DNA of 64,000 nt from a bacterium. Lineage in GTDB: Bacteria; UBP15; UBA6099. The notes under the pieces are model-generated. The model saw only the letters and a list, made by a program, of their open reading frames with translations. It was not told the DNA's origin and made no database searches. A program made the translations under genes and the position numbers. Shown one piece after another: positions 33,116 through 38,919 of this stretch. The DNA lies in NCBI GenBank assembly GCA_029564595.1, contig JAKQPS010000001.1, positions 1-64,000 of the forward strand. Reading direction: 5' to 3'. Each line of letters starts with the position of its first letter. The stretch's first letter is position 1.

Positions 33116-33251
33116 CGCCCCAAGCGGACATTGTTCTTCATCCGCCAACGTCGTTGGATATTTTGTAACAAACAAAGAAATATTCCGTATGTGTTTTATA
33201 ATAACGGTCATGATATAGTAAATAACTATAATTCAGAAAAGGAGGTGTCGC
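33116..33251. promoter_or_regulatory. Leader of the selenoprotein peroxiredoxin gene
   Basis: TATAAT hexamers at 33197-33202 and 33227-33232, and a perfect palindrome TATAGT-AAATA-ACTATA at 33214-33230 just before the AAAGGAGGT ribosome site. The palindrome overlaps the second TATAAT and could be an operator. No clear -35 pairs with either hexamer. Confidence 0.4.
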
Positions 33252-33968
33252 ATGGCGGGAAAACCGACGAAATGTGTTGAACCGGCAGGAGGGCCTGTTG
33301 TCGCGGAGCGAAGCTCTGAAAAGCCGATTACAACACAAGAAAAGGAGGCGAAAACCATGACGGCGAGAGTGGGAGGTCCGGCTCCCGATTTCGAGGCGGG
33401 AGCGTACTTCAACGGGCAGTTCCAGAACATCAAGCTATCAGACTACAAAGGGAAATGGGTGGCGCTTTGTTTTTATCCGGGCGACTTCACCTTCGTTTGA
33501 CCGACTGAATTGAGCGCGGTCGCGCTCAAATACAATGATTTGAAGAAACTCGGCGTGAATGTTCTCGCGATGAGCGCGGACAGCAGGTTCTCGCACAAAG
33601 TATGGCACGAGGAAGAGCTTTCAAAGATGGTTAAGGGCGGGATGCCGTTCCCTATGTTGTCTGACGCTGGCGGCAGAATAGGAAGCGTCTATGGAGTCTA
33701 TGACGATGCAAGCGGCGTCAATATCCGAGGCCGTTTTCTCATCGATCCGGATGGAATCATTCAAGCCGTCGAGATTATGACTCCTCCGGTGGGAAGGAAT
33801 TTCTCCGAACTGATAAGGCAGGCACAGGCGTTTCAGCTTGTAAGGAAAACCAAAGGGCAGGAAGTTACTCCCGCAGGCTGGAGACCCGGAAAGAAAACGC
33901 TGAAACCCGGCCCGGACCTCGTCGGAAAAGTATGGACGAAATGGAAACCCGAAGAAGCTTTCGAGTAA
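33252..33968 (+). CDS. prxU: Selenocysteine-containing peroxiredoxin (in-frame UGA at 33498-33500)
   Basis: Full product 238 residues with Sec at codon 83. Without recoding it would appear as two broken pieces, split by TGA at 33498-33500. The UGA lies in GDFTFV-U-PTEL, exactly where AhpC/TSA peroxiredoxins have the peroxidatic Cys (TFVCPTE), and the frame continues with [11 protein letters not shown] and VGGRF-like substrate motifs. A SECIS-like hairpin follows (33510-33529). The C-terminal resolving Cys of 2-Cys enzymes is replaced by Thr (EVTPAGWRP), as I recall for Geobacter-type Sec peroxiredoxins, whose N terminus (AERSSEKP) it also shares. Start: ATG 33252 with AAAGGAGGT. A second ATG at 33357 also has an AAAGGAGG and would place Sec at 48. 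It needs selA, selB, selC and selD elsewhere. Confidence 0.92.
33510..33529 (+). promoter_or_regulatory. Bacterial SECIS-like hairpin
   Basis: TTGAGCGC-GGTC-GCGCTCAA, eight base pairs around a GGUC tetraloop (or nine pairs closed by G-C), starting 9 bases after the UGA. The apical loop is 18-21 bases from the UGA and begins with G, as in the bacterial SECIS model (loop 16-37 bases downstream, a G in the first two loop positions). Confidence 0.8.
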
Positions 33969-33991
33969 TTGTCGAAAGCGAAAACGGAAAT

Positions 33992-34020
33992 AAAAAACCG
34001 GCTCAATGCCGGTTTTTTTT
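33992..34020 (+). terminator. Rho-independent terminator after the peroxiredoxin gene
   Basis: CCGGC-TCAAT-GCCGG stem flanked by an A-run before and TTTTTTTT after, ending 52 bases past the stop codon. Confidence 0.85.
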
Positions 34021-34243
34021 ATCCCGAATCCTTCATTAGGATTCGGGTTAAAACGAAACTAACCCTTTCATACCTGAATTCAGACTTGCAACCCCCCGGT
34101 TTGCTGGATTGTTTACATCGACTTTTCAACAGATAAATTGTCAGTATCAGAATAGTGTGGATTCATCCCGGCTTCATCATATTTATGACAATGCTGACGA
34201 TTGAAAACCTGTTCCAGACAAGCTTCGAAACGTCCATGCACTA

Positions 34244-34262: not shown

Positions 34263-34278
34263 GTTGTTATTTATAAAA

Positions 34279-34315
34279 CGCACTAAAAATAAGTGCGCAT
34301 TATATAATAGTGCGC
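34279..34315 (+). promoter_or_regulatory. Promoter with three AGTGCG half-sites
   Basis: CGCACT (34279-34284) and AGTGCGC (34292-34298) form an inverted repeat; a second AGTGCGC lies at 34309-34315. A perfect -10 TATAAT (34303-34308) sits between the two direct copies, so a protein bound to these sites would cover the promoter. The ATG is at 34376. Confidence 0.5.
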
Positions 34316-34375: not shown

Positions 34376-35587
34376 ATGGACATAATTACTGGAAATGCGG
34401 TTGTAGGAGAAAACTATTTATCGACAAGGAAATTTCTGGTCGATGATCTACGTGATTATTTGCTCAAAGGAAAGTCTGTCCTTATCGATTCTCCGCGAAG
34501 ATTTGGCAAAACCAGTGTGATTAAAGAGCTTGCTTTCCAAGAAGAATCTCAAAACAACATAAAGGTTCTATTTTTAGATATTGAATCAGAAAAGACGGTT
34601 GTTGCTTTCTGCAAAGCTTTTTTTAGAAAAGCATTGAGTCTTTTCCCAACCAAAGAAAGGAATGAGCGCCTTAAAACATTTTTTGGCGACACTTGGAATA
34701 TGATCGCCGGCCGTGTGAAAAAAATAGGGGGTCATGAGTTTGAACTAGAATTGAGCGAAAAGACTAGGGATTATGATTTTGAAAAATGGAAAGAAGTTAT
34801 AAACGCGCTATTGTCAGGACGGCCAACCGGCGGAGAAAAAGTTGTTTTCGCGTTTGACGAGTTCCCGGATTTAATTCTCAGTCTGAAAGAAAACGCGGAT
34901 AGCGCGGCGGACTTCACAAGGGAAGCCGACAGCCTGCTTGCGTGGCTGCGTTCGCTGCGTCAAGAAAGCGGGCAGCACACCTTTGTCTTCTGTGGTTCTA
35001 TCAATCTTAATTACACACTTGACGCTATCAGCGCGCGTCACCGGATCAACGACCTTGAAAGGCTAGTCGTTCCCGTTATGGACAAAGGCGAAACAGAGAA
35101 ATTGCTCGCGACTCTTTTTTCATCGATCGACATAAACGTGGAGCCTGCCGCCATGGAATTTCTTTCGGGGATTTGTATGGGAGGGCCTCCTTATTACGGC
35201 CAAATAGTAGCAAAAGAATTTAAAAGCGGAAGAGTGAAAAGTATTGACGTGGAAACAGCGATGGGTTTAGTAGACAATATGATATGCGGTGAAAACCACG
35301 ACCTCCGCCATCTCAGGACTCGGATGAACAAGCTTTTTTCCTCTTCTGAGCTTATGGTGGCCAAACTCATACTTAAGGCATTATGCGGCGCTGAAGCTAT
35401 GCCCGAAAAAAGAATTTATGACGAATACATCAGTGGCAAATGCGACTATGAGCTGTTTGCCGCCATACTCGGCAGGCTGACACACGAGGGATATGTCATG
35501 CGCGAACCCGAAGCGGGAGGCGGAATCAGGTTCGTTTCGCCGCTTTTTAAAAAGTGGTGGGCGAGCAAGGAGGAGTCGCGACAATGA
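34376..35587 (+). CDS. P-loop ATPase with C-terminal winged-helix-like domain
   Basis: 403 residues. Walker A DSPRRFGKTS (38-47), Walker B VVFAFDEFPDL (156-166) and a sensor-1-like FVFCGSIN (203-210) fit the archaeal-ATPase group of AAA/STAND-related P-loop proteins. Residues 325-400 read as a winged-helix domain (SELMVAKLILKAL ... LFAAILGRLTHEGYVMRE). This type often acts as a regulated NTPase in signalling or conflict systems. It is the first gene of a two-gene unit: the next ATG overlaps its stop (ATGA). Composition is more AT-rich than flanking genes, suggesting acquisition. The promoter shows palindromes (34244-34315). Confidence 0.75.
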   Translation: MDIITGNAVVGENYLSTRKFLVDDLRDYLLKGKSVLIDSPRRFGKTSVIKELAFQEESQNNIKVLFLDIESEKTVVAFCKAFFRKALSLFPTKERNERLKTFFGDTWNMIAGRVKKIGGHEFELELSEKTRDYDFEKWKEVINALLSGRPTGGEKVVFAFDEFPDLILSLKENADSAADFTREADSLLAWLRSLRQESGQHTFVFCGSINLNYTLDAISARHRINDLERLVVPVMDKGETEKLLATLFSSIDINVEPAAMEFLSGICMGGPPYYGQIVAKEFKSGRVKSIDVETAMGLVDNMICGENHDLRHLRTRMNKLFSSSELMVAKLILKALCGAEAMPEKRIYDEYISGKCDYELFAAILGRLTHEGYVMREPEAGGGIRFVSPLFKKWWASKEESRQ

Positions 35588-38500
35588 ACAACAAATACAA
35601 TCCACGGCTGTCGAGCCATGAAGAATTAAAAAACTCCTTCGTCGGCAGAGATGAGATTTTTAAAGATCTGCTTGACGATATAAGGCTGTTCGAGGGCAAG
35701 TCTGTCAAACAGCATTGGATGTTCTATGGGCCGAGGGGAATAGGGAAATCTCACCTTCTTACGCTTGCTTATCATGAAGTCAGAGAAGACAAGGAGCTAA
35801 GTAAAATCTGGATTCCCGCGCTTCTTCCAGAGGAAATAAGGCTGGTTTCCGATCTTTCCAGTTTTTTGGAGAAAGTCCTGCGGGAGATCATAAAAGAACT
35901 TGAGGCGTCGGCGGACGGCAAGGAGTCGGCGTTGAAACTGGAAGAGGCCGTGAAGACAGTCAAGGGAAGTCTTAAGGGCAAAGAAAAAAGCTCTGATAGG
36001 GCGCGGAGTTATTTCGCCATCATAGACGAAATCTTTAGTGACGGCAGGAAGCGAATTCTGCTGCTTGCGGAGAACATGCAAGGAATTATCGGACGAAGGA
36101 TGAGCGTTGACGAGCAGAAGCATTTAAGGTCGTTTTTGCAGACGAGCGACGCGCTCATGCTTGTTGGAACAGCAACAACCGTCTTTAAGGAACTCACGGA
36201 TCACAGCCTGCCGTTTTACAATTTTTTCAGACTTGAACGGCTTGAGGAGCTTTCCCAGTCGGACATGAAAAAACTGGTGTTTAATGCGATAGATAGACAT
36301 GGGCGAATGGAGGAAAAAGACAAGGCGGCGCTGGCGCCGAAGCTTAACGCCGCGCACGCGCTTACCGGTGGCAACCCGAGAATGGCCGCATTCATGGCCG
36401 ACATCGTCTGTTGCGAGAACGTTGAGCCTATGCTGGATTTCATGATGAAGCTCATCGACGAAATCACTCCTTATTACGACGCAGTGTTTAAGGATGTGCC
36501 GGAGCATCAGAGGAACATTTTAGACGTCCTAGCCGAATATGAACCCGCTCAATCACCTGCGGATATAGCATCAAAGCTGGAAACCGGAAGCGAGGTGATA
36601 AGGAACTATCTCATCCCTCTAAAAGACAACGGATATGTTCGCCTCGCCTTCTCCGACGGCAGATCGAACTATTACTGTTTGAATGAATATCTCTACAGGA
36701 TATTTCGTCAAACCAGAGGGGGGCATCCGAGGGACAGAGACCGCTGGGTCATCGAGTGGCTGTTTCTGCTTTATTCATTTGATGAAATTTCTGCTATGAG
36801 AGACAACGTTTCACAAGGCGTTGTGCGCGTCAGAGACACGAATGTCATGAAGAAACTTCTCTCCGAAGCGGTGGAATACCGTAAAGCAAATCCTGTTGAT
36901 TGCGACAATATTGAAATGATTAAACGCATGGCGGCGGGGACTTCTGACAAAGCGGAAAAGACAGAGCCGACAATGACTCTTGTAATAGAACATATTAAGA
37001 AAAAGGAATTTGAACAAGCGTTGGAAGAGATGCTAATAATGGAACAAGAAGATGAAAACCATACAAATAATGCCATGTTCAACTATGTGCGGGCTACTTG
37101 TTTATTTTGTCTTGGGCGTCATCAAGAAGCGATCGAATCATTTGAGTTAGCTGCCGGGCAAGACTCGGATGCGCATAGAATATTTAGCGGCTGGGGGAGC
37201 AATCTTATAGCTTTAAACAGATATGAAGAAGCGATAGAGAAGTTTGAGATTGCCGCGAGGATTAACCCTGAGGATCATTCAATATATTCCGGTTGGGGGC
37301 ACAGTCTTGTGGCTTTAAAAAAGTATAAAGAGGCCGCTGAAAAGTTTGAGACTGCCGCGCGTTTGAACTCTGATGATTATATGACATACTCAGGCTGGGG
37401 GCACAGCCTAAAGGTTTTAAATATGAATGAAGAAGCAATTGAGAAGTTTGAGATTGCCGCGCGGTTGAATCCCGGTGATTATCTTTCATACTCCGGCTGG
37501 GGGCACAGCCTTGCGGCTTTAAACAGACATGAAGAAGCTATTGAGAAGTTTGAGACTACTGCGCGCCTGAATCCCGATGATTATATGACATATTCCAGTT
37601 GGGGACGTAGCCTAATGGCTTTAAACAGACATGAAGAAGCCTCTGACAAGTTTGAGATTGCCGCGCGTATTAATCCTAAAGATTTTTTAATATACACTGG
37701 CTGGGGACGCAGCCTAATGGCTTTAAACAGGAATATAGAAGCCATGGAGAAGTTTGAGACCGCTGCGCGCCTGAATCCCGATGAATATTTAATATATCTT
37801 GTCTGGGGTAATAGTCTTGCGGCCTTAATTAAGCATAAAGAAGCCATGGAGAAGTTTGAGACCGCTGCGCGCCTGAATTCCGATGAATATTTGATATATC
37901 TTGTCTGGGGTAATAGTCTTGCGGCCTTAATAAGGCATGAAGAAGCTGTAGAGAAATTTGAGAATGCTGCGCGTTTAAACTCCGATGATTATATGACATA
38001 TTCCGGCTGGGGGCACAGCCTTGCAGCTTTAAACAGGCATGAAGAAGCTATTGAGAAGTTTGAGACTACTGCGCGCCTGAATCCCGATGATTATATGACA
38101 TACTCCAGTTGGGGACGTAGCCTAATGGCCTTAAACAGGCATGAAGAAGCAGCAGGAAAGTTTGAGATTGCCGAGAAATTAAACTCTGATTTCAATAACT
38201 TTACTGACCTAGCGTTATGTCAAATACAGATGGAGAGGTATGACGAAGCAACCCTTTCTTTAATCAGGGCATACAATTTGGAAACGCGCATAACAATATC
38301 CGGGATGCTGGAAGAAACGGCCGCGAAGCTGAATCCCGAAGAATATATCAGGATGTTTTATTCGAAGGTAGAGGGAGAGAGGTTCACGGATGAGGAGTTG
38401 TGCGCGCTTCTTGCGGCGACGGACAGGTTTGAGGCCGCAACGGACTGCTTAGCTAATCTTCGGGAAAAGTATCTGGTGAAGAAGGAGAACAATAAAAAGG

Positions 38501-38919
38501 ATTTAACGCTGTTGACAGGGTTGTTGAAAATGCAACTCTTCACCAAGCTTGCACGAGGCAAAGGGGCGGAGGCTTTGCGCGTCGTCGATTTGATTGTTGC
38601 GGCTCTGAAATATTACGGTGAAAATAATAAAGATGATAAAAATGAGAAAGAAGAAGAGATCCGCTTAATCACGTTTCGAGTCATTCTGCTTCATGCGGCG
38701 GGAAAATCTACGGAGAAAGATTCGGTTAATGTCATAGCGAGGTTCAAGGAAGCGCGAAATGATGGGTTGCCGTGGTCTGAAAGCCTTGAGATTGTGTTCA
38801 AGTGCATTACCGAGCCGAAAACATTAGAAGCAAAAAAAGCAATGGCGGACAAGGCGATAAGAGCGATTGTGAAAATCATCCGAAAACAAGCGAAAGAACT
38901 AGAATTCGCTGAAATATAG
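35584..38919 (+). CDS. Large P-loop ATPase with tandem TPR array
   Basis: 1111 residues from the ATG overlapping the upstream stop (ATGA), with an AAGGAGGAG site. The N-terminal ATPase (about 15-330) has Walker A GPRGIGKS (49-56). The expected Walker B reads RILLLAEN (157-164), so the first acidic position is Ala and an Asn follows the Glu; hydrolysis may be weak. LMLVGTAT (191-198) is the sensor-like strand and GGNPRMAAFM a sensor-2-like motif. A winged helix follows (about 315-385, ILDVLAEYEPAQSPADIASKL). Residues 497-870 are 11 or so 34-residue TPRs of the pattern YSGWGxSLxALNRxEEAIEKFExAARLNPDD. The C terminus is helical. The architecture resembles STAND NTPases, where TPRs sense a ligand. 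Function unknown. Confidence 0.78.
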   Translation: MNNKYNPRLSSHEELKNSFVGRDEIFKDLLDDIRLFEGKSVKQHWMFYGPRGIGKSHLLTLAYHEVREDKELSKIWIPALLPEEIRLVSDLSSFLEKVLREIIKELEASADGKESALKLEEAVKTVKGSLKGKEKSSDRARSYFAIIDEIFSDGRKRILLLAENMQGIIGRRMSVDEQKHLRSFLQTSDALMLVGTATTVFKELTDHSLPFYNFFRLERLEELSQSDMKKLVFNAIDRHGRMEEKDKAALAPKLNAAHALTGGNPRMAAFMADIVCCENVEPMLDFMMKLIDEITPYYDAVFKDVPEHQRNILDVLAEYEPAQSPADIASKLETGSEVIRNYLIPLKDNGYVRLAFSDGRSNYYCLNEYLYRIFRQTRGGHPRDRDRWVIEWLFLLYSFDEISAMRDNVSQGVVRVRDTNVMKKLLSEAVEYRKANPVDCDNIEMIKRMAAGTSDKAEKTEPTMTLVIEHIKKKEFEQALEEMLIMEQEDENHTNNAMFNYVRATCLFCLGRHQEAIESFELAAGQDSDAHRIFSGWGSNLIALNRYEEAIEKFEIAARINPEDHSIYSGWGHSLVALKKYKEAAEKFETAARLNSDDYMTYSGWGHSLKVLNMNEEAIEKFEIAARLNPGDYLSYSGWGHSLAALNRHEEAIEKFETTARLNPDDYMTYSSWGRSLMALNRHEEASDKFEIAARINPKDFLIYTGWGRSLMALNRNIEAMEKFETAARLNPDEYLIYLVWGNSLAALIKHKEAMEKFETAARLNSDEYLIYLVWGNSLAALIRHEEAVEKFENAARLNSDDYMTYSGWGHSLAALNRHEEAIEKFETTARLNPDDYMTYSSWGRSLMALNRHEEAAGKFEIAEKLNSDFNNFTDLALCQIQMERYDEATLSLIRAYNLETRITISGMLEETAAKLNPEEYIRMFYSKVEGERFTDEELCALLAATDRFEAATDCLANLREKYLVKKENNKKDLTLLTGLLKMQLFTKLARGKGAEALRVVDLIVAALKYYGENNKDDKNEKEEEIRLITFRVILLHAAGKSTEKDSVNVIARFKEARNDGLPWSESLEIVFKCITEPKTLEAKKAMADKAIRAIVKIIRKQAKELEFAEI
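37075..38195 (+). repeat. Tandem 102-bp repeats coding for TPRs
   Basis: Eleven units of 34 codons, several nearly identical at the base level. Units 5-6 and units 10-11 are almost the same pair (SGWGHSLAALNRHEEAIEK, then SSWGRSLMALNRHEEA), pointing to a recent two-unit duplication. Units 7-9 share a different variant (YLVWGNSLAAL). Confidence 0.85.

Follow-up and report, generated by a model that had tools for sequence, protein, structure and literature searches.

A PrxU-family selenocysteine peroxiredoxin gene with two conserved candidate translation starts in a poorly sampled bacterial lineage

Known selenocysteine peroxiredoxins and the gene at this locus

Selenocysteine (Sec) peroxiredoxins are known from several bacteria, and the closest described enzyme is PrxU of Eubacterium acidaminophilum (Sohling et al. 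2001, as cited in PMC13188914). In two surveys, 12 bacterial Sec peroxiredoxins had been recognized in sequenced genomes by 2006 (PMC1794560), and 43 were recovered from the Sargasso Sea (PMC1088965). The surveyed enzymes are TxxU-motif peroxiredoxins in Sec-decoding bacteria, which is also the case here; unlike the present account, the available portions of the surveys mention neither an N-terminal cysteine motif nor two starts.

We examined a window of 64,000 nucleotides, the whole stretch of DNA that was analysed. When TGA was read as Sec, positions 33252-33968 of the plus strand formed one peroxiredoxin frame of 238 amino acids, and the sole internal stop became U83 in TFV-U-PTE. The best curated match of the read-through protein was NCBIfam NF040737 (peroxi_PrxU), which aligned to residues 7-234 and scored 392.4 bits, 270 being the cut-off. 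Pfam AhpC-TSA covered residues 40-172 and therefore ran across the TGA, and 1-cysPrx_C covered residues 193-229. A preliminary description of this DNA had taken two same-frame pieces for one peroxiredoxin split only by the TGA at 33498-33500, at the peroxidatic cysteine, and the read-through and NF040737 match bore this out. It had also noted that Sec peroxiredoxins are known from other bacteria, and the locus is indeed a member of the published PrxU family. Its warning that gene calling would split the gene holds for a naive caller; NCBI, however, maintains a curated model of the PrxU selenoproteins, and a pipeline equipped with this model would not miss the gene. The kind of enzyme is already known, and what is less expected is the pair of conserved starts common to most of its relatives. 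The features of the locus are listed below.

33240-33246, plus strand: Shine-Dalgarno (SD) sequence of the outer start, AGGAGGT (anti-SD duplex -12.2 kcal/mol)
33252-33965, plus strand: prxU in its long form, which comprises 238 aa including Sec83; stop codon TAA at 33966-33968 (NF040737, Pfam and fold match)
33252-33356, plus strand: N-terminal extension of 35 codons, in the long form only (found in 35 of 42 PrxU genes)
33273-33275, plus strand: Cys8 in KCVEPAGGP, 75 residues before Sec (N-terminal Cys in 35 of 35 extended homologs)
33343-33348, plus strand: SD sequence of the inner start, AGGAGG, within the coding sequence (-10.9 kcal/mol)
33357-33359, plus strand: inner start ATG (Met36) of a predicted 203-aa short form, 47 codons before Sec
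33468-33470, plus strand: Cys73, ten residues N-terminal to Sec (conserved in 41 of 42 PrxU)
33498-33500, plus strand: UGA read as Sec83, the peroxidatic residue in PxxxTxxU (NF040737 match, TGA conservation)
33510-33529, plus strand: SECIS hairpin, stem 33510-33517 / 33522-33529, loop GGUC at 33518-33521 (folding, covariation)
33867-33869, plus strand: Thr206 of EVTPAGW (33861-33881), in place of the C-terminal resolving Cys
33986-34024, plus strand: terminator-like hairpin AACCGGC-TCAAT-GCCGGTT followed by a T run, 3' of prxU (inverted repeat)

Compared with PrxU as represented by NF040737 and the E. acidaminophilum enzyme, the window protein has the same Sec in PxxxTxxU, the same UGA codon and the peroxiredoxin fold, with a score far above the cut-off. 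It is set apart by Thr in place of the C-terminal resolving Cys and, probably, by its two starts. The structure was modelled with AlphaFold2 from 31 sequences, giving a mean pLDDT of 80, with the core mostly above 90 and residues 1-39 low; with two sequences only, the pLDDT was 32. This model matched human Prx1, human Prx2 and Salmonella AhpC with E values near 1e-20 (best 1.2e-20), and the nearest solved structures by sequence were Prx1/Prx2. Structural alignment to human Prx1 (7lj1), Prx2 (1qmv) and Salmonella AhpC found the same fold and core at 39-48% identity. By fold and sequence the protein falls in the typical 2-Cys (AhpC/Prx1) class, although the C-terminal Cys that this class carries in E-V-C-P-A-x-W is Thr206 here (EVTPAGW). 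In contrast to Prx1 and AhpC, it carries Sec as the peroxidatic residue and lacks the C-terminal resolving Cys.

The locus is best read as a single-gene unit for this peroxiredoxin. In the upstream interval 33116-33251, a promoter scan and an inverted-repeat scan found neither a promoter consensus nor an inverted repeat. Downstream, a promoter/terminator scan placed the terminator-like hairpin at 33986-34024 on the opposite strand.

Decoding of the in-frame UGA

PrxU genes were collected through a search that read through stops over a spread of genomes, supplemented by one named MAG (n = 42 with the window gene). TGA was found at the Sec83 codon in all 42 genes, the other 41 of which came from many families. 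Among matches above the PrxU family cut-off, L031 alone had Cys at the peroxidatic codon. Viral contigs contained no PrxU detectable by protein query and none with the TGA version of the motif; viral-contig loci matching the Cys version were included for alignment depth only.

The host genome, an assembly of 4.4 Mb in 203 contigs that is 97% complete, was found to possess a tRNA-Sec with anticodon UCA, selB above its curated cut-off, selA and selD. The preliminary description had predicted this Sec machinery in the genome and had treated an absence of selB or tRNA-Sec as grounds for abandoning the reading; both are present. Across the wider set, selA scored above its cut-off in 33 of 37 PrxU genomes compared to 14 of 35 genomes without PrxU (Fisher exact test; p = 1.5e-5); this and the other significance figures are optimistic because of the kinship among the homologs. 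Counting against the association are four PrxU genomes without selA above the cut-off, namely G399 and G429, which are only 84-87% complete, and G294 and G406, which are 94-96% complete.

We then considered the hairpin that follows the TGA, which had been described as SECIS-like and as lying nine bases downstream. It was found to consist of TTGAGCGC-GGTC-GCGCTCAA, with an 8-bp stem starting 9 nt after the TGA and a loop starting 17 nt after the UGA. Bacterial SECIS elements, following the rule applied in bSECISearch, have a G early in the loop and an apical loop about 16-37 nt after the UGA. The window hairpin agrees with this rule in its GGUC loop and in the loop start at 17 nt. In the window gene the fold was -12.9 kcal/mol, with z = -2.5 relative to dinucleotide-shuffled sequences, of which 4 in 200 folded equally well, and P = 0.03 relative to synonymous recodings; taken alone this hairpin is only moderately unusual. 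Across 38 homologs, the covariation of the stem was 0.391, compared to 0.102 in shuffled alignments and at most 0.158 in slid pairings. It was noted that 82% of cells were paired, that 54 changes were two-sided and that the loop was GGUC or AGUU throughout the homologs. The hairpin is therefore present as had been described, with a stem that covaries among its relatives.

A pseudogene, or a sequencing error that turned a Cys codon (TGC/TGT) into TGA, would look identical in one genome, since either would leave a single stop in an intact frame. Against this stand the same-codon TGA in 42 of 42 PrxU genes, the Sec machinery in the host genome and the covarying hairpin after the TGA, and we reject this explanation as having practically no chance of being correct. 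The conservation of TGA in 41 other PrxU genes rules out, in particular, the sequencing error against which the preliminary description had cautioned. Comparative evidence demonstrates, at the level of sequence, Sec decoding at UGA 33498, and the locus is almost certainly a functional PrxU-family Sec peroxiredoxin decoded at this codon. In the proposed mechanism, Sec-tRNA(Sec) would read UGA 33498, aided by SelB on the hairpin just downstream. These results establish the gene model of a selenoprotein from a little-sampled bacterial lineage, for which they also confirm Sec decoding.

Additional features of the Sec system were recorded. The host selD (L018; G000 contig C79, 62480-63400) is a selenoprotein gene as well, with an in-frame TGA in the active site, AGCAG-U-AAKV. 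Its neighbor is selA, the tRNA-Sec lies about 12 kb off on the same contig, and selB is on another contig. In the six nearest genomes (G001-G006, ranging from the same genus to the same order), a search with a threshold of E 1e-50 found no PrxU, and selA exceeded its cut-off only in G001 and G004. Both PrxU and selA are patchy across the lineage of the host, and several of these six genomes are incomplete. As a point against the SECIS reading, the standard stem is reduced to its inner 4 bp in most genes of family f248, where a competing stem can form directly after the UGA. This was seen in L026, L061-L064 and L066-L069, mostly of f248, where a 4-bp standard stem occurs with a 7-bp alternative stem directly after the UGA.

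Two start sites and the N-terminal extension

N-terminal proteoform pairs are known, for example the long and short forms of ClpB, and they are enriched among oligomer-forming proteins (PMC11005335). The window gene resembles the ClpB pair in having an outer and an inner start in one frame; it differs in encoding another protein and in that its pair is proposed only from conserved SD sites. We found two in-frame start codons, each with its own conserved ribosome binding site, as is characteristic of such pairs. A strong SD (duplex at or below -6.5 kcal/mol) was present at both the outer and the inner start in 30 of the 35 extended homologs. The inner duplex by itself reached this threshold in 33 of 35, and the inner start lay 46-49 codons before Sec. 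Against the pattern, an inner SD was lacking in L024 and L071, and an outer SD in L060, L061, L067 and L071. A second SD-bearing start was encountered in only 1 of 81 background open reading frames (0 of 24 in the window and 1 of 57 in the loci). It was also noted that the inner SD was stronger than in synonymous recodings (mean -8.5 versus -4.4 kcal/mol). Strong SD sites at both starts in 30 of 35 homologs, against 1 of 81 in the background, make two isoforms likely, and judging from this conservation the starts at 33252 and 33357 are probably both used. Translation from 33252 would yield a long form with the N-terminal Cys motif, while translation from 33357 would yield a short form without it.

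The match to NF040737 extends over model positions 3-232 of 233 and thus covers the N-terminal extension. Because the curated model spans it, the extension itself is not new. Close gene pairs showed an excess of third-codon-position changes in the extension, indicating that it is translated and under coding selection, and a conserved motif, GC[AV]xPtGGP, was identified (KCVEPAGGP in the window protein). The seven PrxU genes without the extension have their start codon 47-52 codons before Sec, at the place of the inner start. In two of these, L074 and L065, a Cys immediately follows the initiator Met (MCLMVG and MCEVKVG, respectively). No mention of two PrxU starts or of the N-terminal Cys motif was found in the open-licence literature, and the conserved two-start layout, as a sequence-based prediction, appears to be new here.

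Proteins of the Prx1/AhpC fold class form rings of ten, so the long and short forms may mix in one ring. A broader proposal would be that PrxU in many families uses its two conserved starts to build mixed long/short rings, in which the arm bearing the N-terminal Cys would either resolve or relay the selenenic acid and the ratio of the starts would set the redox behaviour. We regard this proposal as speculative and on balance improbable. The two-start layout with the N-terminal Cys would provide a simple route from one selenoprotein gene to two redox forms.

Cysteines for resolution of the selenenic acid, and neighbouring DNA

In the proposed reaction, Sec83 would take the peroxidatic role in a fold typical of Prx1/AhpC, and by analogy with the family, peroxide would oxidise the selenolate to a selenenic acid that a thiol then resolves. 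With Thr in place of the C-terminal resolving Cys, the resolving agent would be Cys73, Cys8 or, acting directly, an external thiol or redoxin. The gene poses the problem of resolution in a Sec peroxiredoxin that has lost the classical resolving Cys. The preliminary description had called the resolving cysteine absent, which is accurate for the C-terminal Cys (Thr206 in EVTPAGW) but overlooks Cys8 and Cys73, which remain and are conserved in relatives. These are the only cysteines left in the window PrxU, and either may act as the resolving Cys.

In 22 of the 42 PrxU, the C-terminal resolving Cys has given way to Thr, Ala or Met. Among the extended homologs it was lost in 20 of 35 and kept in 15, with at least three changes on the tree, and among the genes without the extension it was lost in 2 of 7 (L073, L074). 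A rule that confines loss of the C-terminal Cys to genes with the N-terminal Cys was considered and dropped. In the first 38 homologs, no extension-less loss was seen (Fisher exact test; p = 0.022), but the rule failed once two further families brought the set to n = 42, as L073 and L074 lack both cysteines (Fisher exact test; p = 0.23).

Cys8 might be a relocated resolving Cys that replaces the C-terminal one and forms a selenenylsulfide with Sec83. Consistent with this, it is one of only two cysteines in the protein, 20 of the 35 extended homologs have lost the C-terminal Cys, and the N-terminal Cys is held at a near-fixed distance from Sec (-74 to -77 in 34 of 35 extended homologs and -83 in one). 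However, the 15 extended homologs that keep the C-terminal Cys, the 2 of 7 unextended genes that lost it and the p value of 0.23 argue against a replacement, and the extension was modelled at a pLDDT of 50-66, so no Cys8 contact is readable from the model. A resolving role for Cys8 is accordingly doubtful. Cys73, on strand beta-3, could instead be a resolving partner or a second redox centre. It is present in 41 of 42 PrxU, including 22 of the 22 without a C-terminal Cys, and also in L031. Yet it is kept as well where the C-terminal Cys is present, and in other peroxiredoxins its position is occupied by Phe or Val (8 of 10 Cys peroxiredoxins compared), which suggests that the Cys73 side chain may be buried. 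We therefore consider this role for Cys73 possible but unlikely.

The enzyme may also act as a one-Sec peroxidase with no internal resolving residue, in which an external thiol or redoxin directly reduces the selenenic acid. Thiols readily reduce selenenic acids, as is established for selenium peroxidases, and the C-terminal Cys has proved dispensable in 22 of 42 PrxU. On the other hand, two other cysteines are strongly conserved without an obvious other role. This reading is plausible while falling somewhat short of probable.

Several minor observations were made beside these results. The Cys relative above the PrxU cut-off, L031 (genome G019), likewise lacks the C-terminal resolving Cys (VAPAGW); apart from the peroxidatic Cys, it retains only the one ten residues before it. 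In the neighbouring DNA, an overlapping palindromic sequence, CGCACTAAAAATAAGTGCGCATTATATAATAGTGCG, is located at 34270-34314, upstream of an ATPase gene at 34376, and is possibly an operator or promoter region. Two overlapping genes occupy 34376-38919, one for an ATPase that matches ATPase_2 weakly, the other for an AAA-type ATPase with a fused, long array of TPR repeats that closely resemble one another.
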